DNA of 64,000 bases, taken from assembly GCF_004564135.1 (NCBI RefSeq), contig NZ_CP038255.1:2343501-2407500 (forward strand). The letters are read 5' to 3'. The notes beneath the pieces were generated by a model. It did no database searches. It was given only the letters and a program-made list of their open reading frames with translations, and had not been told where the DNA came from. Of this stretch, positions 47,771-60,917 are shown in pieces. Source of the stretch: Terasakiella sp. SH-1. GTDB taxonomy: Bacteria; Pseudomonadota; Alphaproteobacteria; Rhodospirillales; Terasakiellaceae. The position numbers and the translations under genes are program-made. Each line of letters begins with the position of its first letter. Position 1 is the stretch's first letter.

Positions 47771-48652
47771 TTAAGCGGCCTTCAACTCATATTGCATTGG
47801 ACTGATATTGCCCAAGTATGAAGGACGACGTTTCGGATTATAAAAACGATTGATATATCCGAACAAGGCTTTTTCCGCCTGTTCTCTTGTTTGCATTTTC
47901 CTTCTCCAGATCAATTCGGCTTTCAGGGATTTGAAAAAGGTTTCCACGACGGCGTTGTCATAGCAATTACCCTTGCCAAACATGGAAGCCTTGAAGCCGT
48001 GTTTTCCGAGCAGTTTCTGATAATCATGTGAGCAATATTGGCTGCCACGATCTGAATGGAATATCACGCCTTCCGGTGGTTGCCGCAGAGCAATGGCCTG
48101 TTGCAAAGCATCAATCACCAATTTGCGTTTCAGTCGCTTGCTTGTTGCCCAGCCAATGACACGGCGGGAAGAAAGATCAATCACAATTGCCAGATACAAC
48201 CAACCTTCCGCTGTTTTGATATAACTGATGTGGCGTTCCGCCAGCTTCGCAAACACCCGCCCATTTCTGGTTTGGCCCCGTGGTCGTAAAATCACCATCC
48301 AACAGGTTAGGTGCCACATTGAAGTTATGGTCGCTGTCTGTTGTCTTCTTGAAGATATGTGTGCGTATCACTCTGATATTGTTATCTTTCATCAAACGAG
48401 TGACCCGTTTTTCACTGACCCTAAAGCCCAGGTCACGCAATTCACCTGTCATGCGTTCACGTCCATAAGATTGACAATTTTCTTTATGAATGGTGCGAAT
48501 ATTGGTCAGCAAAACCAGATCATCTCGCTGGCGTTGAGACATGGGGCGTTTACGCCAATCATAATAACCACTGGGGCTGACGTTGAAAGCTTTGCACAAC
48601 AGATGAAGGGGGGGAGATCGGCCTTCTTCGCATCAATGAACTTGAACCTCAT
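47771..48652 (-). pseudogene. IS3 orfB transposase, frameshifted
   Basis: From MRFKFIDAKKADL at 48652 the frame changes near CKAFNVSPSGYYDWRKR. It changes again near residue 110, where about two dozen extra bases separate NQKWAG from ISYIKTAEGWLYLAIV. The DDE catalytic motifs remain readable (IDLSSRRVIGW, FHSDRGSQY, NAVVETFFKSLKAEL). The protein cannot be made without recoding, so the copy is inactive. Confidence 0.85.
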
Positions 48653-49237: not shown

Positions 49238-49375
49238 TTACTGTTGAGTCTTTTCTTTATCTTTCACGGCCTCAAGTAAAGCAAACAGTATCTCCCCAGC
49301 TTCAATGAGAATACCTTCAGCATCAGGATACTTTCTGAGTTCAGCAACGACCTCTTCAATTCTAGGCGCGTCCAT
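49238..49375 (-). CDS. Small acidic protein overlapping the luxI end
   Basis: 45 aa, starting MDAPRIEEVVAELRKYPD. The start at 49375 is set by a near-perfect AAGGAGGT about 7 bases upstream; a longer in-frame reading to 49504 has no such site. It overlaps the last 14 bases of luxI, so it is probably translated from the same message. Helical and acidic. A role alongside the autoinducer synthase is possible but only position supports it. Confidence 0.6.
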   Translation of the reverse strand: MDAPRIEEVVAELRKYPDAEGILIEAGEILFALLEAVKDKEKTQQ

Positions 49376-50153
49376 GTTCCAGTACCTCCTTAGTGATTGC
49401 TTTTTCGATAGAACCAATCTGATTCGCAATATCAGACATGCCAACACTTTTTGCTTGTCCCCGTAGGTATTCCAAAGATGCATAAATACCGCGAATTTGT
49501 TCATCTACAGAACTTTCGGTCATAACGTTATGCGCTCCCACAGGACGAGTCCACAACACAGGTTCGTGAATATTGTTTTTCTTACGTATCGAATGTAAAT
49601 ATTCAGTACTGATTGGTAAACGCACGGCAACAGCCCGTGAGTTTCCAATTTTATGTTCGTCCCCAATTCTTTCAGAATCCCATCCTGCATGTTTGAAAAG
49701 GCGCTCAATAAAAACGTCTGTTACAGTGATTAATTCCGTTTTTCCATGCGCCAGTCCATATTCGATACCCCCAAGAAACAATTCGACACAGCCGCGCGAC
49801 AAAAGGCGTGTTACTTTCTCATCTCCCTCAGTCTCAACCGCAAATCGGCTTGATTCGAAATATATTGAGGATTCGGGGCAAATAGCACCATCTAAAAGCT
49901 GAGGAAAAGTGTCACGAAGCATGTTCGGCCCAGTCATCGGCAAAAAACGAACCGAGCCTCTTAACATACCGTCTGGACTGTAATAAAGCATATAAGTTGG
50001 GTTAAAAGCATCATATTGGTCACGCTCTCGACCATTATCAATCGTGACATCCCAACCCAAACGGCCATTAAAAACTCTCGCTCTTTGCCGGAACATTTGA
50101 TCTAATCGTTCCATAAAAACATGATGATCTGATGGTTCAATGAGAATAAGCAT
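49362..50153 (-). CDS. Acyl-homoserine-lactone synthase, LuxI family
   Basis: 263 aa. The conserved LuxI pattern is present: Arg, Phe and Trp in RARVFNGRLGW (about 23-34), Asp residues in ERDQYDAF (about 43-50), Arg in GSVRFLPMTGPNML (about 69) and ESSRF (about 99-104). These form the acyl-ACP/SAM pocket in characterised members. The C-terminal 50 residues extend past the minimal enzyme. It lies directly downstream of the luxR-type gene, with a lux-box-like palindrome between them. The acyl chain cannot be predicted. Confidence 0.93.
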   Translation of the reverse strand: MLILIEPSDHHVFMERLDQMFRQRARVFNGRLGWDVTIDNGRERDQYDAFNPTYMLYYSPDGMLRGSVRFLPMTGPNMLRDTFPQLLDGAICPESSIYFESSRFAVETEGDEKVTRLLSRGCVELFLGGIEYGLAHGKTELITVTDVFIERLFKHAGWDSERIGDEHKIGNSRAVAVRLPISTEYLHSIRKKNNIHEPVLWTRPVGAHNVMTESSVDEQIRGIYASLEYLRGQAKSVGMSDIANQIGSIEKAITKEVLEHGRA

Positions 50154-50233: not shown

Positions 50234-50947
50234 TTATGGTGAGATCAATCCCATTGTCAGCCCACGTACAACCGCTTGCGTACGTGAGTAAACGCCAAAC
50301 TTATTAAAAACATTCGTAAAATGGCTTTCGACTGTCTTTGTTGATATTCTCATTATGTCAGAAATTTCACTATTGGACTTACCGTCTTTCGCCCATTTTA
50401 AACATTCCAACTCTCTGGCAGTCAAAGGACCACTGCTATTTTCAGGTAAGGTTAAGTCTGCAAAATAAGCATCAAAATGAAGTGCTAACAAATGAAGATC
50501 AGCTGCATTGTGGGTTAAGGCTTGTTTAAATGCTCGATCAGCTTCATCACTGGCTACAGAAATAAAGGAGGACTTAAAACCAACCGATCTATTAGGAATA
50601 GTCAAACCATTACCAAGGCCACACTCCTTGGCTTCCCCCATCATTTGTTGCTGGCGTGCCGTCATACCTGTACTGTCATTACAACTCCACGCAAAGGGTA
50701 ATTTGGCTGTCGTACCATGTTCAAATACAGGGTCGATCTCCCCATAGGACTCATTAAGGTATCTTTCTTCCCAAATGGAACCATAATTATGGCGATGGGC
50801 AACCCAATCCCCCTCAGGTACGCCAAAATTGAAATAGGCAAATGTAGAAAAACCTAAAGAGTTAATTTGTACCGAAAACAAATCCGCCAAAATATCTGGT
50901 GTTTTAGCCTCTGATAATTCACCAATAAAACTTTGCAACCGATTCAT
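50234..50947 (-). CDS. LuxR-family quorum-sensing regulator
   Basis: 237 aa. The autoinducer-binding domain (about 1-165) keeps the pocket residues seen in TraR/LuxR: Trp and Tyr in WEERYLNESYGEIDP, Asp-Pro at its end, and PFAWS. The C-terminal GerE-type helix-turn-helix (about 172-230) reads LTARELECLKWAKDGKSNSE, then ISTKTVESHFTNVFNKF. It should bind the AHL made by the neighbouring synthase and activate lux-box promoters. It follows the PLD gene with a terminator-like hairpin between. Confidence 0.93.
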   Translation of the reverse strand: MNRLQSFIGELSEAKTPDILADLFSVQINSLGFSTFAYFNFGVPEGDWVAHRHNYGSIWEERYLNESYGEIDPVFEHGTTAKLPFAWSCNDSTGMTARQQQMMGEAKECGLGNGLTIPNRSVGFKSSFISVASDEADRAFKQALTHNAADLHLLALHFDAYFADLTLPENSSGPLTARELECLKWAKDGKSNSEISDIMRISTKTVESHFTNVFNKFGVYSRTQAVVRGLTMGLISP

Positions 50948-51080: not shown

Positions 51081-54000
51081 CTACTCTTCTTCAAATTCAA
51101 AAGGTTCCCCTTTTGCCCGATCTTCTTCGAAGCTTTTAATTGTTTTGCCCACTTCAACAGAAACCTGACGTTTTTCCTGAATCAGTTTCGTGGTCTCGCT
51201 TGAGAAAAGCTCCTCTTCAGAATCGGATAATTCATTCAGGCTTTCCTGAATATTATAAGTATTCTTCATCTGGGTCTGGACAACACTTGCCATCTCATTT
51301 GCCGGCGGATCAAAAAGGTCTGTTTGCGCCTTACCAATTTTATTGGCAGATTCAGACAAGCTTTGACGTCCTGCCCTGCTCATTTGCTGTTCATAAGGCA
51401 CCATCTCTTCAACCGTTTCAAGCTGGGCAGTGGTTCGTCTTTGCAATTGAGCACGAGAAAGCTCGGCCAATTCAATTTCGCGATCAGGTGAAGTCACCGT
51501 TGTTGGGTTTTCTTCCCCATAACGCCCAACAGCATCATCGTCTTTTTTGAGACGGCCATATTCAGCCCGCTGTCTTTGCTGGGCAACCTTTTTCCAGATA
51601 AAGCAGCCAAGAGCCAAAAGAAGCGCCCCAAGAGCAATAGCCCCAAAAACCCAAACCACTGTGGGCCAACCTTTGGTATCCGGGTTCGGATTTGGCCCCG
51701 GAGGGGTCTGTGGCGAGCGGCCATAAATACTATAGACCCCTTTGAAATCACCACTGCTATCTTGCGGATAGGTAATCGTCCCAAAAAATTCCATGCCAGT
51801 GAAACCTTCATTCAACGTCGCACGGGAAACCTGACCGAAGAATAAGTTGGCAGACGTCTCGTTTTCCCCCATTTCCCACGTCAGGCTGTTATTATTATAG
51901 ACTGGATTAACGATAACTGTGTCACCCAGCTTAACCGTTCCGTCACTGGTTACTGTAAGGCTATCGGTAATTTGTGGGAAAGGCTGCTCTTCAGTCTCAG
52001 TAAACGGCTGTTGGGTTAACAAGCGAGCTGAATTTTCCGGCAGTGTATAAGACTTCCCACCATCATCTGTAACCCATGTTTTGTAGGTCCCTTGCCAATA
52101 TTCCAGAACCTTTAAACGCATTTGATTGAAGGCACTCAAAATCTCCAATGCATTACAGTGATAGCCATTATCTTTCAGGAACTTGTTAATATTGGCGTTG
52201 GCTTCTTCCACAGTATCTGTTTTCTGATCCACCACTTTAGAGAAACCTGCCATAAGAACGGTTGAATCCATCACATTCGCAACAAAACGCAAGGCTTCCG
52301 GTGTGGCCTCTGTCGGCGGTGGATTTTCACTAAAGAATGGGTTCTTCAACGCCTCCAGCACAAAGGTTGCCTGTGTCTGAAAACCGCTATTGGAAATATG
52401 TTCGTTCATTCTGGCTTGAACAATATTTTTCTGCGCGGGGTCTTGCGTTTCGTCCCATTGCTTTTTCAGTTCCCCCCAAATTACCCTGGATAAGGTATTG
52501 GATTGCAGGTCTGCGATAAAAAGCATCGCCTCTAATTGTTCGCTGGTTTCTAAGTCTTCATCCATCGCATTTGTGCACGTTGTTGAGGAAAAATTCCATA
52601 ATGGTGTCCAGTAGTTTTGTAAGTAGCTGGTAACGACCTGTTCATCCTGAACCATATAGCCAAATTCATTCAAATTGGCCGGATAAAGATTTTGCGACCC
52701 AATATAGAACAATGCATCATCCACCATAAACGTCTTGGCATGGTTCGGGATCGGAGCATCACCCGGATATGTTTTTTGGGCAGAATAACGGAAAGATGCC
52801 ACACGGAACTTACTCTTAATCAGGTCTGTGGCTGCAGCGTCCGTCATCCAAAGCGTCTCAGTCAGGACGATTTTCATTTTCGCATTCACAGTATCAGGAT
52901 TATCACCATAATAAGGCGCGACAGTTGCACTCAATCCACCAGCAACCGCATTGGGGTTGGACAGCACAATTTTCATCTCTACGCCCCGCTGCAAGGCTTC
53001 CCCCATCTTCTTGAAGAGGTTTTCATTCCAAATCAAAGAACAATAGCGTAGTCCGGGAATGTCATTTGGAATTAAACGGAAAGCCTGTAAAGACATACGG
53101 ATGGACTTTTTCGCCAATGAAACAGCCTTCAAAATGGCTTCGTCGCTGGGCTCTGTAAAAGAGAATAAAAAGCTGGAAAGCGTCGGCAGCGCATAATAAC
53201 GTCTTGTATCCGCCCCTCGCCCGATCGCAAGAACCGAACTTCCCGTTTTTGATGGTTGGGGAGGAAAACGTTTCTTACAATCTTCATAAAGAGAAGCTGG
53301 TGGATAGGCCCAATATTTGCTGACGCATTTCTTCTGCTTTTCATCGTAGGTATAAGAGGCATGCAATTTGACTTCTTGCTCAGGTGCCAAAGGGGCAAAG
53401 GAATTGCTACGTGCCAATTCAAAGGCCCAGAGACTATTGGCATATTCATGTGCATCAAGAGCAGCTTCTCCTTCCAGCATCATGGAAACATCAAAAACCG
53501 GATTTTTCCCCAGATATTGCTCCCCCCAGACATTATGCCCACCGGTTAAAGCTTTTTTCCCATCTGCTGCCACAATCTTTGAATGGTTCCATGATGAAAA
53601 ACTGGAACTCATCACAGTGACATAAATGGTCATCTTTTTACTCGGGTCCAATTGCTTGGTAATCTCCGATAAAAAGGGCTCAGCCGTTAAAGGTGGAATA
53701 TTGGGCAAGGGATTGGAATAAAGAATACGAATAACCGGTCGCTGGTCTTCCGGTAAATTGCTCAAATATGTAATCGCATTTTGAAATGCTGTTAAAAACT
53801 TTCCGGTCGGGACCGTCAATGTCGTGAAATCAAGAAGAACCCGTGCTGATGTCATCACATCATAGATGGCATCATAGATACGATAGGAATGCCCCACCAA
53901 TAAATTGGCAGGTTCTGCCCCCGGTTCCGTCACCGTTGCTGAAACAGCTTTACACTGTTGTGTCGGCCCTTCTGCCGTCGTGCAGGCTTGCAGATGGAAA

Positions 54001-54188
54001 TCTGTACTATCGCCCGCAACCGCCTGCTTAAACTGGTCATAAGGCAGCCCCCACACATTTGTCGGTGTGGCATAAAGCCAGTCTGGGGCAAAGCTATTGT
54101 TATCTGAATACCCCCAATGGGCTGTGTCTTTAGGGAATTTTTCGTTTAAAAACTGCTTTATCTGGTCAATATATGTTGGATCGCTCAT
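51081..54188 (-). CDS. Phospholipase D-superfamily membrane protein with C-terminal beta domain and tail
   Basis: 1035 aa. Two HKD motifs define the PLD fold: HSKIVAAD with His at 202 and HAKTFMVD with His at 483, each followed by the family's G(G/S)xN element (TGGHNVWG, IGSQNLYP). A helical part follows, then a beta-rich domain (about 735-830), a single membrane span (about 842-865, ending WKK) and a 170-residue acidic, coiled tail. No signal peptide is present. PLD-superfamily enzymes cleave or transfer phosphodiesters in lipids or nucleic acids. The ATG overlaps the oxygenase stop (TGATG), coupling it to the borosin cluster. Substrate unknown. Confidence 0.82.
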   Translation of the reverse strand: MSDPTYIDQIKQFLNEKFPKDTAHWGYSDNNSFAPDWLYATPTNVWGLPYDQFKQAVAGDSTDFHLQACTTAEGPTQQCKAVSATVTEPGAEPANLLVGHSYRIYDAIYDVMTSARVLLDFTTLTVPTGKFLTAFQNAITYLSNLPEDQRPVIRILYSNPLPNIPPLTAEPFLSEITKQLDPSKKMTIYVTVMSSSFSSWNHSKIVAADGKKALTGGHNVWGEQYLGKNPVFDVSMMLEGEAALDAHEYANSLWAFELARSNSFAPLAPEQEVKLHASYTYDEKQKKCVSKYWAYPPASLYEDCKKRFPPQPSKTGSSVLAIGRGADTRRYYALPTLSSFLFSFTEPSDEAILKAVSLAKKSIRMSLQAFRLIPNDIPGLRYCSLIWNENLFKKMGEALQRGVEMKIVLSNPNAVAGGLSATVAPYYGDNPDTVNAKMKIVLTETLWMTDAAATDLIKSKFRVASFRYSAQKTYPGDAPIPNHAKTFMVDDALFYIGSQNLYPANLNEFGYMVQDEQVVTSYLQNYWTPLWNFSSTTCTNAMDEDLETSEQLEAMLFIADLQSNTLSRVIWGELKKQWDETQDPAQKNIVQARMNEHISNSGFQTQATFVLEALKNPFFSENPPPTEATPEALRFVANVMDSTVLMAGFSKVVDQKTDTVEEANANINKFLKDNGYHCNALEILSAFNQMRLKVLEYWQGTYKTWVTDDGGKSYTLPENSARLLTQQPFTETEEQPFPQITDSLTVTSDGTVKLGDTVIVNPVYNNNSLTWEMGENETSANLFFGQVSRATLNEGFTGMEFFGTITYPQDSSGDFKGVYSIYGRSPQTPPGPNPNPDTKGWPTVVWVFGAIALGALLLALGCFIWKKVAQQRQRAEYGRLKKDDDAVGRYGEENPTTVTSPDREIELAELSRAQLQRRTTAQLETVEEMVPYEQQMSRAGRQSLSESANKIGKAQTDLFDPPANEMASVVQTQMKNTYNIQESLNELSDSEEELFSSETTKLIQEKRQVSVEVGKTIKSFEEDRAKGEPFEFEEE

Positions 54189-54856
54189 CAGTGATAACCT
54201 TCTGCTACGTTTTTATCGGTGGGAATTAAAGTTTGTATGGGTCTGTCTGCTAATACGTCACACCAGGGACTGGGGGTATGTTCCAGGTCCAGAGGTTTAA
54301 AGCGAAAATCACAACTGACCCGCGTTGTTGGGGTATCATTAAAACGGGTGCCATGACGCAAACGCCCCCCGTCCCAAATCAGGGCCTGACCATATTTCAG
54401 GTTAATCGCCTCATAGTCGCCCTTGCCATATCCCGTTTCAACAAACAGGCTGCAACCGTCATAAACATCGGTGAAAGGCAGATAACAATTGATCTGCTCT
54501 TCACGCTTGGTCACATCGGCATCTTCATGAAAAGCGCTGACACAACCGGTTTGGGCAAGATGAACCCGCATTTTGGGATGAGCCGAATAGCTGATCTGAT
54601 TATTATAATGCGGTGCAATGTGATCCTTGATCCACTTATGATAGACCTTGTAAAACAAGGCATCATCAGGCAGACGCTGCATCAGTTTGCGCAAGCGCAT
54701 ATTATCATTATAGCTCAGCGCCTCACGCCCGGTTTGGCGCAACCATGACAAATGCAGAATATTCAGTTTGCGCACCCTGAACACTTCCCTTGAGAGTGTA
54801 TATGCAAAAGGATAATCCCTTACATTGTAATCAATCACAATAAAGCGCCTGTTCAT
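54188..54856 (-). CDS. 2-oxoglutarate/Fe(II)-dependent oxygenase, StrG-like
   Basis: 222 aa. The iron ligands of the jelly-roll fold are visible as AFHEDAD (His110, Asp112) and LRHGTRFND (His168), with the 2-oxoglutarate Arg in TTRVSCDFRF (Arg179). The strand pattern INCYLPFTDVYDGCSLFVE and KYGQALIWDGG resembles StrG-type oxygenases of natural-product pathways. It lies between the borosin methyltransferase and the PLD gene and is translationally coupled to the latter. The natural suggestion is hydroxylation or oxidation of the methylated peptide. Alternative substrates cannot be excluded. Confidence 0.82.
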   Translation of the reverse strand: MNRRFIVIDYNVRDYPFAYTLSREVFRVRKLNILHLSWLRQTGREALSYNDNMRLRKLMQRLPDDALFYKVYHKWIKDHIAPHYNNQISYSAHPKMRVHLAQTGCVSAFHEDADVTKREEQINCYLPFTDVYDGCSLFVETGYGKGDYEAINLKYGQALIWDGGRLRHGTRFNDTPTTRVSCDFRFKPLDLEHTPSPWCDVLADRPIQTLIPTDKNVAEGYH

Positions 54857-54950: not shown

Positions 54951-57185
54951 CTACACAATGGAAGAAATCAGGTTCGCAACCGTCAAGTTGGTCAAGTCCG
55001 CTTTTTCCCATTTGTTCCACAGCATCAATCCACCTTTCGACAAATTATCTTGCGAAATTTTCATCAAGGAAGATTGCGCCCATTCAGGTAAAGCCGGTCC
55101 ACCATACTCACCTGCGAGAAAAGACGTACGGGAACCATAACATTTCAGCTGCGTCTCTTCTTCTTCTTTGGCACGACATTGCCCATAAAGTTCAACCGAG
55201 CCAATGATCGGGTCCAAAATGAAAGAGATTTCTCCACTGTAAAAATCACGCGTACCGCCCGACCATTTCAAGACATTGCCCGTAATCTTAAACCAATCCA
55301 CATCCTGACCATCAATCTGCATGTGTTCAGGACTGATGGAGGCTGCTGTCAATGTATTAGCAAAACGCCCATTGGAACGCAGAACATACTCCCCACTGAT
55401 TTGGTCAAGCTGTGTTGAACCGATAAAATCAAGTAAGCGCGGCAGGACATCCTTGCGCTGCGGATTAACCTGACTGGCATAAAACGGCGGGATATCACCC
55501 TGTTCTTCATCTTCTGTCCAGATTTTACCGACCAAACGGCGTGTTCCATCACCTTGCAAATCAAGACGTAAGTAACCGTTGAAATCCACATCCCTTTGGG
55601 TGTTCCAAACGATTGAACCGTTTTTCAGTGAAAACTTTCTGATCGGCGTATCATTGATATAAAGAATGCTTTTCTGGCGGTGTTTGCGATTACCGATCAA
55701 TGTGATGATAATCTGTTGATCTTCATCAACCATATAAAGCCCCGTCCAGGGATAAAGGCTGTTGCGATAAATGAAATCAACCGAACTGTGGAACTGTGAC
55801 CAGTCTGGTTGATAATTCTTATCACTGACCCAACCATTAAAGGCTGCACGGGCTGTGGGGACGGGTTTGGATTTGATCAACTGAATAATATCAGCACAAT
55901 CTTTTTTCGAATTGAGCAAATCATCAATCAAGCGTTCATTTTCACTTGACCGTTTAAAGGCCCCTTTGGCCGCAATTTGAATGGCACCGGAATCCCGACT
56001 GGTCAACAAGGCCCTTTCACGTTCTGACAAATTATCAAAACGACTATCTTCCAAGGCTTCAACAGGGGCATAACGGTATTCGTCCTGTAAATCCATATCA
56101 AAGCGCAGCTCAATCAAAAAATTACTGGCGGCTGTTTCTTCCTGCCATTTATAGGATTTAGGAATGGCAAATTTCTTAAACGCATCAAAGGCTTTCATCT
56201 CACGCGGGCCATATTCCCCGATCTCGCGCAATGGCGATTTCGGCGTAATCAGTTCCTGACCTTTTTTAACGACACCCAACTGTAAAGCCATATCCCTGTT
56301 GGTTGCCACCACATCACGCGGCGCAATATAAAAGGTCGAAATTCCTGTTATTTTTTCCTGCACTTCTGGGTTATGCAGCTCATGTAAGGGGTACACCTCA
56401 ATCATCGGATCAATGGTTGGATAACGCGATCCGATATAATGGGTAATTTCATAATCCGGCCCATAAATATCAATCAGCCAATTCACAAAAATAGAAAAGC
56501 CATTATTCAAATAGCCTTGCCGGCGATAGCCCAGTTCCCCAATCAAGCCCACTTGCCACAAGATCACATGCAGGGTCGGATCAATATGGCGCTGGCGGAT
56601 CAAACAATCCGTTGCCTCATGAGTTTGCATACCGGGGTGACACGGGTCGACCCCCAAATCCGCACATAAGGTGTCCAATGCGCAAACACCTGCCTTCATA
56701 ATGGCGCGGTGTCCTTCACGTCGGGCCAGTAAAATGGCACGATGGGTGGATAAAACAAAAACACCGGGATGACCATAAAACACAACCACAACCTTGAGCC
56801 CTTGGCGAACCCAATAAAGCTGCGCCTCTGTCATTTGCATATAGGTTGTGTAGCGAATTTTATTTTCGCCATAAAGTACATACAAATCCAGTGCATCCGG
56901 CCTTGCCCGCTTTAACCAAACCACTGTTGCCGGGTCCGCCACACAATAGAGGACCTTATCTGCACTTCTAATCAGTTCCTCATCTCCCATGGAAAACCCA
57001 AGGGTTTCAATGCCGGATCCGATAATCGTCAGGCTCCCCTTGGGTTGAGCGGAGGTTTCCCCCCGCTCTGCCAAGGACTGAACATCGTCTTTTAAAGAGG
57101 CAATACCGTTTGCCAGTTCTTCCCATGCTTTTTGATGGTCTTCATAGCTTGGGTATTGCTCGTTTGTCGTTGTTGTCATTGTCAC
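54951..57185 (-). CDS. Borosin-type alpha-N-methyltransferase fused to beta domains and a C-terminal candidate core peptide
   Basis: 744 aa. Residues about 50-290 match the SAM-dependent methyltransferase of fungal and bacterial borosins: KGSLTIIGSGIETLGF, CVADPATVVWLK, the catalytic tyrosine/arginine segment YGENKIRYTTYMQM (about 105-118), VFYGHPGVFV, HPGMQTHEATDCL and HVILWQVGLIG. The helical clasp follows (LSERERALLTSRDSG, then AIQIAAKGAF, about 386-410). Unlike the fungal prototype, two beta-rich segments (about 470-556 and 585-672) come next. The last residues (LTNLTVANLISSIV) are hydrophobic and uncharged, like a borosin core to be methylated on backbone amides. SAM is the methyl donor in the family. 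That the tail is the substrate is inference. Confidence 0.85.
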   Translation of the reverse strand: MTMTTTTNEQYPSYEDHQKAWEELANGIASLKDDVQSLAERGETSAQPKGSLTIIGSGIETLGFSMGDEELIRSADKVLYCVADPATVVWLKRARPDALDLYVLYGENKIRYTTYMQMTEAQLYWVRQGLKVVVVFYGHPGVFVLSTHRAILLARREGHRAIMKAGVCALDTLCADLGVDPCHPGMQTHEATDCLIRQRHIDPTLHVILWQVGLIGELGYRRQGYLNNGFSIFVNWLIDIYGPDYEITHYIGSRYPTIDPMIEVYPLHELHNPEVQEKITGISTFYIAPRDVVATNRDMALQLGVVKKGQELITPKSPLREIGEYGPREMKAFDAFKKFAIPKSYKWQEETAASNFLIELRFDMDLQDEYRYAPVEALEDSRFDNLSERERALLTSRDSGAIQIAAKGAFKRSSENERLIDDLLNSKKDCADIIQLIKSKPVPTARAAFNGWVSDKNYQPDWSQFHSSVDFIYRNSLYPWTGLYMVDEDQQIIITLIGNRKHRQKSILYINDTPIRKFSLKNGSIVWNTQRDVDFNGYLRLDLQGDGTRRLVGKIWTEDEEQGDIPPFYASQVNPQRKDVLPRLLDFIGSTQLDQISGEYVLRSNGRFANTLTAASISPEHMQIDGQDVDWFKITGNVLKWSGGTRDFYSGEISFILDPIIGSVELYGQCRAKEEEETQLKCYGSRTSFLAGEYGGPALPEWAQSSLMKISQDNLSKGGLMLWNKWEKADLTNLTVANLISSIV

Positions 57186-57198
57186 GAACCTTCACCTC

Positions 57199-59025
57199 TT
57201 ACAGAATCTTGACAATGAATTTCTGAGCAACACCGGCCCCGACTTTCACAGGCAATTCTTTACCATTGTAGGTATAATTCGCCAATGTGGTGTAGGCTTT
57301 CGGCCAGTCTTTCTGATCACTATATTGGCACATGGCATCCACGGCCTTTTGTTCATCATCCTGACTCCAACGCCAATTGGACAAGGCATCGTCTTCTTGC
57401 TGGTTTTTCAGGGATAGAATGCCACTGACCACCATGTTCTGTTCATCCGGGGTTGCCCCTTCTGCCACATAGAACGAGAATGTCGTCCAGCGTTCTTCAA
57501 TCGAATTGGCCGGATTTTCCATATAGTTCATCAACAGCCCGACAGGAGAGGCAGAAGACGGCTGTTCCCCTGCATAACTGACGGCGGCCTTCTTATACCA
57601 GACCTCCAGCAGTTTCTGGGCTGCGATCATACCGCCCATAACGGCTGCATTTTTCAAAACAAATTTAAAGATCGCGCCCTTATTCTTCCAAAGCGCACTG
57701 CCCAGTCGGCTGGCAAGTCCTTTAACCGCATTGGCATCCACATCAATATCCGTGTCTATATCCGTATCCACATCAGTGACGTTATCAACCACATTGTCGG
57801 TGTCCGTGTCGGTATCAATATCAATGTCGATATCCACATCCACAACGACCAGTGCATCAATATCCACATCAATATCAACGTCCACATCAACATCAACATC
57901 CACGTCAATATCGACGTCCACATCGACATCAACATCCACGTCCACATCGACATCAACATTGACCAGATCACCGTTTTCCGCACCCGCCTCATTAAAGACC
58001 TTGGACAGGGAGTCTGCCAGTTTATTAGCCCCTTGTTTGACCGCATTGATAATGGCCTTGCCCCCTGTCTGCAGGGCTTTAAACAAGGTCGGGACAACTT
58101 TTGCCAAATCAATGACCGTATTGACGATCATCACAAGGTTCAGGGCCGTAAAGGCCACATTAGACAGGTTATAAGCTGCCATCCACCAGGCGATTTTCGG
58201 TACTTCATAAGGCTGGGCAATTAAATCATCGCCATCTTTTTTACCTTGTAAAAACGGCTCATAAGTCCCGGCATCCCCATCATGCAACACCATATCCTGA
58301 ATGATCAGTTGCAGGCTAATGCCTTTGCTTTCTGTTGCCCCCTTGCTGCATAAGGCGCGCTTGCTGTAAGTCAGGTCAACCGCGTCCCCGCCATCAGTCG
58401 GTGTATATGTCGCAGTTCCATCACTGCTCAGTTCAATTTTACCATTGAGTTCACGCGGCAGCACCAATGGGATGATGGGCTTGGGTGGTTCTGGAGCATA
58501 GACATAAAATGTCTTGCCCTCGCTCCCTGCCCAGGCCCGAATATCATTATCGGCCCAATAGGTCACGGCACTGAAAAGACCGTAGTCAAACTTCATCCCG
58601 TTTTCTTTAAACCATTTATTCAAATCGTCCTGTTGCTTGGTCAGGTCCGTCTGGGTCAAAACGATATCATTGAATTGCAGGCTTTGTGGGCTATAGGGAC
58701 TTCCAAGATAATCCTGATAAAACTCAAATGCTGATTGTGCAATGCCCGGATCATCTTTGGTAATGGTGATATCCGTATCAGACAGTAACTGCGTCACGGT
58801 TTCTGCGACAGGCATCCCGGTTTTAGGATTAACGAAAGAAAGCTTTTCCAGCGGTTCACTCGGCGTATATGTGGATTTTTTATCCGCAGCAACCGATCCC
58901 ACCTTAGAATAAGCCGGATACATTGTGCTGGGATCATCGGCCGTCGCCCCACTTGGGACTGTGAACGTATAGATATCAAGATCTATGTCGAGCTGGTTAT
59001 CGACATTAACAACATGAGAAGACAT
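57199..59025 (-). CDS. Large membrane protein with Val-Asp/Ile-Asp repeat tract
   Basis: 608 aa, no signal peptide. A beta-rich N-terminal region (about 1-240) contains RAWAGSEGKTFYVYA at 163-177. A long hydrophobic region (about 278-312), an amphipathic stretch and a tract of alternating Val/Ile/Thr and Asp (about 356-430) follow. A second hydrophobic helix (about 450-472) precedes a C-terminal globular domain (about 480-608). The same AWAG..TFY motif occurs in the gene upstream, so the two are related. It ends 13 bases before the methyltransferase gene. No known family was recognised; pore-forming, surface or receptor roles are speculative. Confidence 0.7.
   Translation of the reverse strand: MSSHVVNVDNQLDIDLDIYTFTVPSGATADDPSTMYPAYSKVGSVAADKKSTYTPSEPLEKLSFVNPKTGMPVAETVTQLLSDTDITITKDDPGIAQSAFEFYQDYLGSPYSPQSLQFNDIVLTQTDLTKQQDDLNKWFKENGMKFDYGLFSAVTYWADNDIRAWAGSEGKTFYVYAPEPPKPIIPLVLPRELNGKIELSSDGTATYTPTDGGDAVDLTYSKRALCSKGATESKGISLQLIIQDMVLHDGDAGTYEPFLQGKKDGDDLIAQPYEVPKIAWWMAAYNLSNVAFTALNLVMIVNTVIDLAKVVPTLFKALQTGGKAIINAVKQGANKLADSLSKVFNEAGAENGDLVNVDVDVDVDVDVDVDVDIDVDVDVDVDVDIDVDIDALVVVDVDIDIDIDTDTDTDNVVDNVTDVDTDIDTDIDVDANAVKGLASRLGSALWKNKGAIFKFVLKNAAVMGGMIAAQKLLEVWYKKAAVSYAGEQPSSASPVGLLMNYMENPANSIEERWTTFSFYVAEGATPDEQNMVVSGILSLKNQQEDDALSNWRWSQDDEQKAVDAMCQYSDQKDWPKAYTTLANYTYNGKELPVKVGAGVAQKFIVKIL
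57736..57957 (-). repeat. Hexanucleotide-derived repeat coding for (Val/Ile/Thr-Asp)n
   Basis: About 74 codons are dominated by GT(N)-GA(Y) and AT(H)-GA(Y) pairs, interrupted at ALVVV and NVVDNV. Synonymous codons vary between units, so the repeat is maintained at the protein level more than the DNA level. Slippage could change its length. Confidence 0.85.
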
Positions 59026-59074: not shown

Positions 59075-60832
59075 TTACAGCTCCGGTTCAATCGGCTCAT
59101 CTTTCGGGTCGAATTCTTCTTTGACCCTTTCCTGCTCTTCATTTGCCGTTTTGATTTCCTCACTCACCCGTTCCACATTTTCAGTATTTTCGGCGATATT
59201 AGCTTTTGTTGCCTCACTGATCTTCTCTCCCATACTCTCGGAAAATTCAGTCATTTTACCCGAGAAGTCCTTCATTTGCGTATCCAGGTCTTTCATCGTT
59301 TTATTCAAGTCTCTGGTTGTTGCACTATCGAGAGTATCTTGCATTTTGTTCAGCTCGTTGCCCATTTCTTCCAGCTGCCCTTTTTGCTCCATAGTCATCG
59401 CTTCTTCATACTGCGCCAGATCTTCCAGCGATTTCGCCATACTATCAAGGGACCCCTCGAATTTATCGGCATTGGCGATATCGGTCATTTCGCCTCTTTT
59501 CTCCACCAACTGCTGAAGCGCATCTTTTGGATTACGTGGGCCTGGGTTCTCACCATTACTGATCCGTTCGGCAATACGGTTGCTTTGAGCGTCCAATTTA
59601 TCGCTCAATTCTTTTTGCATCTTGTCAAACAGCTCTTTGGTCGTTGGCTCTTTTTTGCCAAAGATTTTTTTACCGATCCCCCACAAGAGAGAGCCAAAGA
59701 AATGCAACATCATCAGGGCACCACCCCACATCATGATGCATTGGAAAATTTGCGCTGCCCCCTTAGGGTGGAAAACCAAATTCCAGAAATCAGAATTATC
59801 GGGATCATCTTTCTTCTGCGGCTGGTTAAAGCCTGTACAAATCAAGCCGTTCACTGTCCCCGTCAACAACGGAATAATATCCGTATCGTTCGGGTTTTGC
59901 GTCAGTGTAGACTTAACCTGAAACGTTCCCTTAATCGCCAATCCCGGGTTATCCGGATCATCCTTATATACAAACAGACTATCCGTATACAGTAACTCTT
60001 TCGCCTTGGACGTATCCACTGCCAATGTTGACGTATCAGACGGGTCTGTGGAAGGGGTAAACACACATTTATAACCGCCATTGGGCTGGGTTAAATCAAT
60101 TGTTTCCGGCTTGGTTAGGCTAATTGTTCCCAAAAAGCTCGTCGACTTTCCATCACTGCTGTAAAGATAAAACGTGCTGCTGCCATAACCTGCCCAAGCA
60201 AAAGGGAAGTCTTGATAATAGCTTTGCATGGAGACAAAATCACCAAGCGTCACATCCTGATAGCTTTGCGTGCTTTTAAAGAATTTATTGACGTTATCGG
60301 TAATCGAATTCCCAATATTCTTGTTGGAATCTGCAGAACCGTCTGCCTGATTACCCGCCGCTGTCGTCGCACTCGACATCGCAGCCTGAAAGTCCGTCGA
60401 GAGTTTTGATGTCGGATAAGCGCTGATCGTTTGATAGAAATTCGCCGCCTGCTTCATGGCGTCGTAATTCTTTTTGGTAATCGTTTGGGGCATAAACTTA
60501 TGCAAAAGCTGCATCACACCAATATTTGCTACAGGCATATACCAGTCACTTGTTTGCCCTAAAATATTATAAACTGTGGAATATTCCTGCTGATGGGTAT
60601 CTGAATCCTCATAATACTGTTCCAGCAAATAGTTTTTATTTGAATCGTTGGATAAAACGCTTCCACCATCGGTATCTTTTAAAATGACCAGATCCTGATC
60701 ATAGACAACAATACCATTGGGAACTTTTGACGGGTCCTCAACAGTCGGTGTCAGGATAGAAATATCCGTCCCACTGTTGTTTGTAATGTTGATAATTTTG
60801 CTTTGGTCGTCTGTAGTTGATGTTGTGGACAT
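59075..60832 (-). CDS. Large membrane-anchored protein with C-terminal coiled coil, first gene of the borosin cluster
   Basis: 585 aa, no signal peptide. A beta-rich N-terminal region (about 10-70), a helical part, and a region with FAWAGYGSSTFYLYS at 211-225 related to the 608-aa neighbour. One membrane segment (about 358-388) ends in GIGKKIFGKK and is followed by a long Glu/Lys/Met-rich coiled coil (about 397-575). A GAGGGT ribosome binding site precedes the ATG. It heads the co-oriented cluster, 49 bases before the next gene. Function unknown; no enzyme motif seen. Confidence 0.7.
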   Translation of the reverse strand: MSTTSTTDDQSKIINITNNSGTDISILTPTVEDPSKVPNGIVVYDQDLVILKDTDGGSVLSNDSNKNYLLEQYYEDSDTHQQEYSTVYNILGQTSDWYMPVANIGVMQLLHKFMPQTITKKNYDAMKQAANFYQTISAYPTSKLSTDFQAAMSSATTAAGNQADGSADSNKNIGNSITDNVNKFFKSTQSYQDVTLGDFVSMQSYYQDFPFAWAGYGSSTFYLYSSDGKSTSFLGTISLTKPETIDLTQPNGGYKCVFTPSTDPSDTSTLAVDTSKAKELLYTDSLFVYKDDPDNPGLAIKGTFQVKSTLTQNPNDTDIIPLLTGTVNGLICTGFNQPQKKDDPDNSDFWNLVFHPKGAAQIFQCIMMWGGALMMLHFFGSLLWGIGKKIFGKKEPTTKELFDKMQKELSDKLDAQSNRIAERISNGENPGPRNPKDALQQLVEKRGEMTDIANADKFEGSLDSMAKSLEDLAQYEEAMTMEQKGQLEEMGNELNKMQDTLDSATTRDLNKTMKDLDTQMKDFSGKMTEFSESMGEKISEATKANIAENTENVERVSEEIKTANEEQERVKEEFDPKDEPIEPEL

Positions 60833-60893: not shown

Positions 60894-60917
60894 AAACAAC
60901 CTATGCACAAGTTGTTT
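60894..60917. promoter_or_regulatory. Palindrome upstream of the borosin cluster
   Basis: AAACAAC (60894-60900) and GTTGTTT (60911-60917) are exact inverted repeats separated by 10 bases, centred about 73 bases before the first start codon of the cluster. It does not resemble the lux box near luxI. The rest of 60833-61145 is AT-rich and shows no gene on this strand. Confidence 0.45.

Follow-up and report, generated by a model that had tools for sequence, protein, structure and literature searches.

A probable split borosin system in Terasakiella sp. SH-1, with a long alpha-N-methyltransferase encoded beside a Val/Asp-tract protein

Borosin alpha-N-methyltransferases modify the backbone of a peptide carried by themselves or by a partner protein. 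We present here an analysis of 64,000 nucleotides from Terasakiella sp. SH-1 (NCBI RefSeq assembly GCF_004564135.1, contig NZ_CP038255.1, positions 2,343,501 to 2,407,500 of the forward strand), hereafter the window. Judged from its sequence, the window is likely to encode a split borosin methyltransferase that acts in trans on a Val/Asp tract in the product of the adjacent upstream gene, with a neighboring oxygenase probably adding a second modification. The proposal is directly supported by homology, active-site residues, linkage, co-occurrence, conservation of the tract, and homology of a scaffold at the enzyme's C-terminus. The features discussed are listed in Table 1.

Table 1. Features of the probable borosin locus, in window coordinates
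Feature	Position	Strand	Remarks
Companion protein	59075..60832	-	585 aa; N-terminal half and hydrophobic helix homologous to precursor
Weak lux-box candidate	60896..60915	-	20-bp quasi-palindrome, 8/10 pairs; 63 bases upstream of first gene
Probable substrate (precursor) protein	57199..59025	-	608 aa; internal Val/Asp tract flanked by hydrophobic helices
Hydrophobic helix region before tract	58072..58179	-	Residues about 283-318; hydropathy
Probable core, (V/I/T)D tract	57736..57960	-	75 residues; residues 356-430 of 608-aa protein
Hydrophobic helix after tract	57619..57675	-	Residues 451-469; hydropathy
Borosin alpha-N-methyltransferase ORF	54951..57185	-	744 aa; long form that bears a clasp and a C-terminal scaffold
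Tetrapyrrole-methylase-type catalytic domain	56316..57056	-	Residues about 44-290; PF00590, OphMA alignment
Clasp/borosin-binding-domain-like region	55962..56315	-	Residues about 291-408; aligned to OphMA through its residue 377
Leader-type scaffold	55116..55961	-	Residues about 409-690; helix-like stretch and two beta-type repeats; the "inserted beta domains" of the preliminary description
Conserved C-terminal tail	54954..55031	-	Residues 719-744; motif LW..WEK....(V)..L; not core-like
2-Oxoglutarate/Fe(II) oxygenase-like protein	54188..54856	-	222 aa; HxD...H...R motif
Phospholipase D (PLD)-like protein	51081..54188	-	Beta module, one transmembrane helix; PF13091, E = 9.8e-11; hydropathy
LuxR-type regulator	50234..50947	-	PF03472, E = 5.9e-24; PF00196; 133 bases after PLD-like gene
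LuxI/TraI-type acyl-homoserine-lactone synthase	49362..50153	-	PF00765, E = 3.7e-48

The methyltransferase ORF starts at a GTG codon, with an ATG two codons downstream and a plausible ribosome site (AGAGGTGA). A preliminary description, made from the letters alone, had called its product a borosin alpha-N-methyltransferase; all of the motifs that it quoted are present in the translation, and phmmer searches bear the call out. Fungal peptide N-methyltransferases (OphMA and its relatives) match residues 44-408, clasp included, at E = 4.4e-69, the split enzyme SonM matches residues 50-305 at E = 1.7e-35, and a 14-row profile raises the OphMA match to E = 1.4e-101. Pfam recognizes only the general TP_methylase family (PF00590, 29.9 bits against a cut-off of 27.8). 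The active-site Tyr and Arg positions agree with those of OphMA: Y102, Y105, R111, Y115, Y137, and Q211 align with Y63, Y66, R72, Y76, Y98, and Q172, and C168 aligns with S129, for identity at 6 of the 7 positions. These OphMA numbers are the ones that we take to be its active-site residues. The residue spacing given for KchMA in PMC11395268 agrees with this numbering. By homology and active-site residues, the product is a borosin alpha-N-methyltransferase, with methylation itself predicted.

Six of these residues do not vary in any of 16 long homologues (window included), and the position of OphMA Ser129 holds Cys in 12 and Ser in 4. Identity to the window enzyme among the long homologues is higher in the catalytic domain (68-81%) than in the clasp (48-71%). 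The prevalence of Cys and the large noncatalytic scaffold would suit an enzyme that is no longer active as a methyltransferase and instead acts as a chaperone or anchor of the tract protein; the invariance of the other six residues and the stronger conservation of the catalytic domain speak against such a loss, which we regard as extremely improbable.

The enzyme is present in one copy in the Terasakiella genome and was found in none of 59 other relatives, among them five from the same genus, which points to a patchy distribution. A scan of bacterial genomes returned 8 full-length or nearly full-length loci (a metagenome-assembled genome [MAG] labelled Williamsia twice, Pseudoduganella flava, three Methylococcaceae MAGs, Methylumidiphilus, and Methylovulum). 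Of 12 matches among plasmid records, 3 cover most of the query (two Mycetohabitans endofungorum megaplasmids and Azospirillum lipoferum 4B). Genome searches added 4 intact loci, for a total with the window of 16 intact loci in 14 genomes; several are close relatives, so these are not 16 independent events. Among 201 genomes from the order of genome G458, 6 had a match, namely, five already known and G890, whose match is a 57-residue piece holding a stop. A phage origin was considered and rejected, as 50,697 phage records held no match. Both M. endofungorum loci (L010 and L011, from Rhizopus microsporus) carry the same cluster on a megaplasmid with transposase genes near, and a giant NRPS/PKS gene lies nearby in L010.

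Related enzymes occur in other arrangements. L032 is a fused protein of 1174 aa with about five beta repeats (counted by eye), a membrane helix, and an acidic tail. L013, L075, and L080 combine an enzyme of 381-450 aa with a separate precursor in which (TTDV)n or (TTEV)n lies at the end or close to it (TTEV repeats in L013, TTDV/TTEV in the other two). Short enzymes of about 260-420 aa, here termed type IV-like, were also found. In a tree of catalytic domains, the 16 long enzymes form one clade (bootstrap, 81), which the fused L032 joins with a support of 100. OphMA and three shorter clasp-bearing enzymes lie nearest to the long clade (support for all together, 72), and 30 short enzymes lie apart; SonM itself is not among the tree sequences.

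Two of the related loci have further features. In L013 (7986-10310, Burkholderia arboris plasmid), a 450-aa clasp-bearing enzyme precedes a separate precursor, which carries a TEVT repeat in addition to two beta repeats, and just downstream of this pair is an oxygenase relative, weaker than those of the long-enzyme loci. L049 (5998-11010, Bradyrhizobium plasmid) contains, besides a short borosin-like methyltransferase, another annotated SAM-dependent methyltransferase together with a TauD-type dioxygenase and a prolyl oligopeptidase, a gene set that looks like a complete peptide pathway.

The window enzyme continues for 336 residues beyond residue 408, the last one aligned to the OphMA clasp. 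The extra region that had been noted there is real and is common to the 15 other long homologues aligned, but its length had been put at about 270 residues. It begins with a helix-like stretch (about 409-475), continues with two beta-type repeats (about 476-690), and closes with a conserved tail; the label "beta-rich" is based on sequence pattern and repeat homology. In profile comparisons, the extension (about residue 405 to the end) matched the separate borosin precursors, represented by a profile of three rows only from the shorter-enzyme loci, with 90.1% probability (E = 1.6e-6 over 254 columns, with matching repeat signatures; 89.2% in another run). The best score among 60 column shuffles was 19.3, compared with 54.6 for the real match, and a lectin, a propeller, and the oxygenase as controls reached at most 2.1%. 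Single beta repeats or the helix stretch alone matched the separate precursors weakly (1.7-16.7%), so the homology rests on the extension as a whole. The extension scored 5.9% against the N-terminal half of the tract protein, and the separate precursors scored up to 24.8% against the companions. The separate precursors also matched the beta regions of the fused L032 protein (93.6%) and of the PLD-like neighbor (85.4%), and the window enzyme's own repeats reached no more than 11.7% against the latter. The extension looks like a leader scaffold that is placed on the enzyme, the precursor, or a fusion in different borosin systems. No convincing relative of solved structure was found for the extension or for the leader scaffold of the precursors.

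The tail reads (L/F)W..WEK....VN..L across homologues, with few exceptions; W723 is invariant in 17 aligned rows, and E727 and K728 are nearly so. The preliminary description placed the substrate in the enzyme's own C-terminal peptide, as in a fused borosin; that end reads ..LTNLTVANLISSIV. Fungal homologues do self-methylate, the last 12 residues are fairly hydrophobic, and the fused long relative L032 has a membrane helix and then an acidic tail at its end. However, the end of the enzyme is conserved across 16 homologues, mostly with the WEK motif, which is not core-like, and the enzyme has no alternating acidic core at its C-terminus or elsewhere, whereas an alternating tract is found in a neighboring protein at every intact locus counted. 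Self-methylation at this end is quite improbable on these grounds, and a short hydrophobic self-core there is unlikely; the Val/Asp tract of the neighboring gene takes its place as the candidate substrate.

This tract is composed of 33 Asp, 23 Val, 8 Ile, and 6 Thr among its 75 residues, and all 33 Asp fall on one parity. At the 15 other loci, the corresponding counts are 32/32, 33/33, 36/37, 29/29, 37/42, 35/40, 32/36, 38/40, 35/35, 35/35, 36/37, 40/47, and, three times, 32/34; the looser values are those of L006-L008 (32/36 to 37/42) and L074 (40/47). Many of the Asp positions are invariant across 15 aligned homologues. The codons are mixed (GAT, 24; GAC, 9; GTG, 11; GTT, 7; GTC, 5), which argues for selection at the protein level rather than a young DNA repeat. 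Of 264 window ORFs of at least 60 aa, this is the only one with such a tract.

Hydropathy profiles of four tract proteins place a helix on each side of the tract in three (window, L009, and L012), and in L079 only the helix before the tract passes the threshold; the protein is probably located in the membrane. From the tract to the end of the protein there are 178 residues in the window and 176-186 in 12 of the 16 loci, window included. The tract proteins of L006, L007, L008, and L074 have 492-575 residues after the tract, with an added C-terminal domain. The additional several hundred residues of these four look propeller-like, with one weak BNR_2 match, and a mannose-binding-type lectin gene lies near the locus in L007/L008. 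The window tract protein has no Pfam family above cut-off, and no solved relative was found.

A tract protein of 606-1106 aa is encoded upstream of the long enzyme in 16 of the 16 intact loci counted. Its gene directly adjoins that of the enzyme in 15, and one companion gene lies between them in L003. Not counted is L076, a broken copy from the same genome as L006, at which no tract ORF was detected. A tract scan covered 13 regions of short type IV-like enzymes (the roughly 3-kb loci L059-L073 not among them), and none of these held such a tract; under the same strict criterion, L013 and L032 also score zero. L013 has TTEV repeats, and L032 has a short acidic tail.

Co-occurrence was assessed with a precursor profile built from the C-terminal domain, tract excluded. 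Long enzyme and precursor domain were found in the same 4 of 343 genomes, and among 398 genomes of the phylum the long split enzyme and the precursor were both found in the window genome only, in enzyme searches that scored at most two candidates per genome and may have missed some. The genome of the fused relative (G085) has no separate precursor match. The two proteins also share the same 3 of 72,556 plasmid records. These co-occurrences are not independent, since the loci are nearly identical in three of the four genomes and a single species accounts for two of the three plasmids. The pattern marks a functional link, without telling which protein is modified.

Linkage alone names no substrate, and the companions are nearly as widespread as the precursor (15/16 loci), with which they have the N-terminal half in common. 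It could be, then, that a different partner is methylated (a companion, the PLD-like protein, or an unlinked peptide) and that the Val/Asp tract is purely structural. We consider this unlikely: no core-like alternating stretch was found in the companions of L074 and L077-L079 or in the other window ORFs, the tract alone resembles cores described as methylated by other borosin enzymes, and in related two-gene systems the partner of a shorter enzyme is a precursor with (TTDV)n or (TTEV)n. By these comparisons, the tract protein is very likely the substrate of the enzyme.

The locus comprises seven minus-strand genes in the order companion, precursor, enzyme, oxygenase, PLD-like, LuxR, and LuxI, with gaps of 49, 13, 94, -1, 133, and 80 bases, from which we infer a single transcript. 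A small precursor hidden beside the enzyme was also considered and was rejected, as the flanking gaps are just 13 and 94 bases. Pfam and NCBIfam searches found no peptidase family among the seven proteins.

The oxygenase-like protein matches NCBIfam TIGR04324 at E = 5.9e-10 (39.1 bits, below the curated cut-off of 150), and neither a Pfam family nor a solved relative was found for it. Relatives are present in 13 of the 16 loci, window included. The HxD...H...R stretch was seen in 8 of 12 loci examined; the motif search caught another stretch in L005 and L009 and none in L003 and L006. This protein is a possible second modifying enzyme.

The companion and the precursor match each other in their N-terminal halves (99.3%, E = 7.8e-21 by profile comparison), and where the precursor has the tract, the companion has a coiled-coil-like tail. 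Companions are present in 15 of the 16 loci, window included; the exception is L007, whose contig starts close by. No Pfam family matched the companion above cut-off, and weak matches of its tail to ZorA (MotA/ExbB-like; E = 5.8e-5) probably reflect coiled-coil similarity. The PLD-like gene overlaps the oxygenase gene by one base, and its product also has an acidic tail; another PLD-like gene adjoins the fused borosin in L032. A reading of the locus as a defense system was set aside; the only matches of this kind were weak ones, to ZorA for the companion tail and to DrmC for the PLD-like protein.

Sites of the lux-box-candidate kind number two in the region upstream of the first gene, with 0.32 expected per 500 bp, and none reaches 9/10 pairs. 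Together with the weak candidate palindrome, the LuxR/LuxI pair makes density control of the operon possible. In the search for relatives of the neighboring genes, none of PLD or LuxI was found in the other loci, and for LuxR there was a single 61-residue match, in L002. Beyond the LuxI gene lies an integrase-core (rve) transposase ORF (182 aa, 47771-48319), consistent with a mobile or rearranged region.

In the proposed mechanism, the enzyme would form a dimer in which the clasp and the C-terminal scaffold hold the partner tract protein, and the Val/Asp tract of that protein would thread through the active site. Backbone amides of the tract would be methylated from S-adenosylmethionine, most likely at alternate residues (Val/Ile/Thr). 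The leader scaffold, which the precursor carries in related systems, would here sit on the enzyme, with the core in another protein, and the neighboring 2-oxoglutarate oxygenase would probably add the second modification. Borosin enzymes are described as dimers with the core stretched out in the active site, and SonM is reported to methylate SonA at L63 and I65, two residues apart (PMC8429565). Type III cores are described as having acidic residues alternating with others, and the bacterial type III KchMA as receiving up to 11 modifications within residues 742-796, mainly on nonpolar residues (PMC11395268). An alternating tract is the substrate shape along which such an enzyme would be expected to work.

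Several observations weigh against action in trans on the tract. The position of OphMA Ser129 is mostly Cys, though Ser and Cys vary within the clade; an S136A variant of engineered KchMA is reported to give virtually no detectable product (PMC11395268). A 75-residue core would offer dozens of possible sites, far above the 11 modifications of KchMA. In addition, Asp parity is looser in L006-L008 and L074, no tract ORF was detected at the broken copy L076, and the companions are nearly as constant as the precursor.

The product may be the whole membrane protein rather than a released peptide, with dozens of alternate amides of a 75-residue strand N-methylated and perhaps hydroxylated by the oxygenase; we put this forward tentatively, as a possibility that we rather doubt. 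If it is true, a strand methylated at every other residue would have one of its hydrogen-bonding edges blocked, so that the tract could pair and not aggregate, and its acidic face would be presented at or in a membrane. Borosin chemistry would then be a protein-maturation system, and backbone N-methylation of the tract in place would serve to make part of a protein, not a secondary metabolite. The trans-acting reading gives one group of split borosins a defined enzyme and proposed substrate, and it could account for the extra domains of the long enzymes, which would be a leader scaffold common to the precursors of sister systems. The proposed substrate differs from a small natural-product core in being a long, nearly strictly alternating tract in a large, probably membrane-bound protein.

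Among known borosins, OphMA and dbOphMA have a catalytic domain 45% identical to that of the window enzyme, with the clasp and active-site residues in common; they differ in being compact and self-methylating, and the matched chains (386-420 residues) have no beta scaffold. The split type IV pair SonM/SonA is trans-acting, as proposed here, and has the same catalytic domain, whereas its enzyme is described as having about 263 aa and its five-helix binding domain lies on the separate precursor (PMC8429565). Type IV enzymes are short and have no fused clasp; the window enzyme has 744 aa and a clasp and lies outside the 30 short enzymes in the tree. It also stands apart from the fused types I-III, having no alternating acidic tract and a conserved C-terminus. 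The fused type III proteins AboMA and KchMA resemble it in having much protein between clasp and core, a distance that for KchMA would follow from its modified residues, and an alternating acidic core. In those proteins the core lies at the C-terminus of the enzyme chain itself, whereas here the probable core is in another gene.

PMC11395268 lists types 0-XI, of which types V-X are attributed to Imani 2022 and Cho 2022, and its legend defines class 2 borosins as having methyltransferase and binding domain in one protein and the core in another. By anatomy and co-occurrence, the same layout is present here, with the tract in the presumed role of core. The preliminary description had suggested an undescribed borosin subtype; the layout instead fits class 2 as published there. 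Type VIII is described in the same source as having about 160 residues after the core, an approximate criterion against which the window precursor has 178 after its tract, and type VII/VIII enzymes from an AboMA BLAST search are said to form their own network cluster and to lie near KchMA in a tree (PMC11395268). We therefore file the enzyme/tract pair as a class 2 split borosin, probably of type VIII, an assignment that follows the published description. A presumed core inside a large, probably membrane-bound protein, with no peptidase found in the operon, looks unusual.
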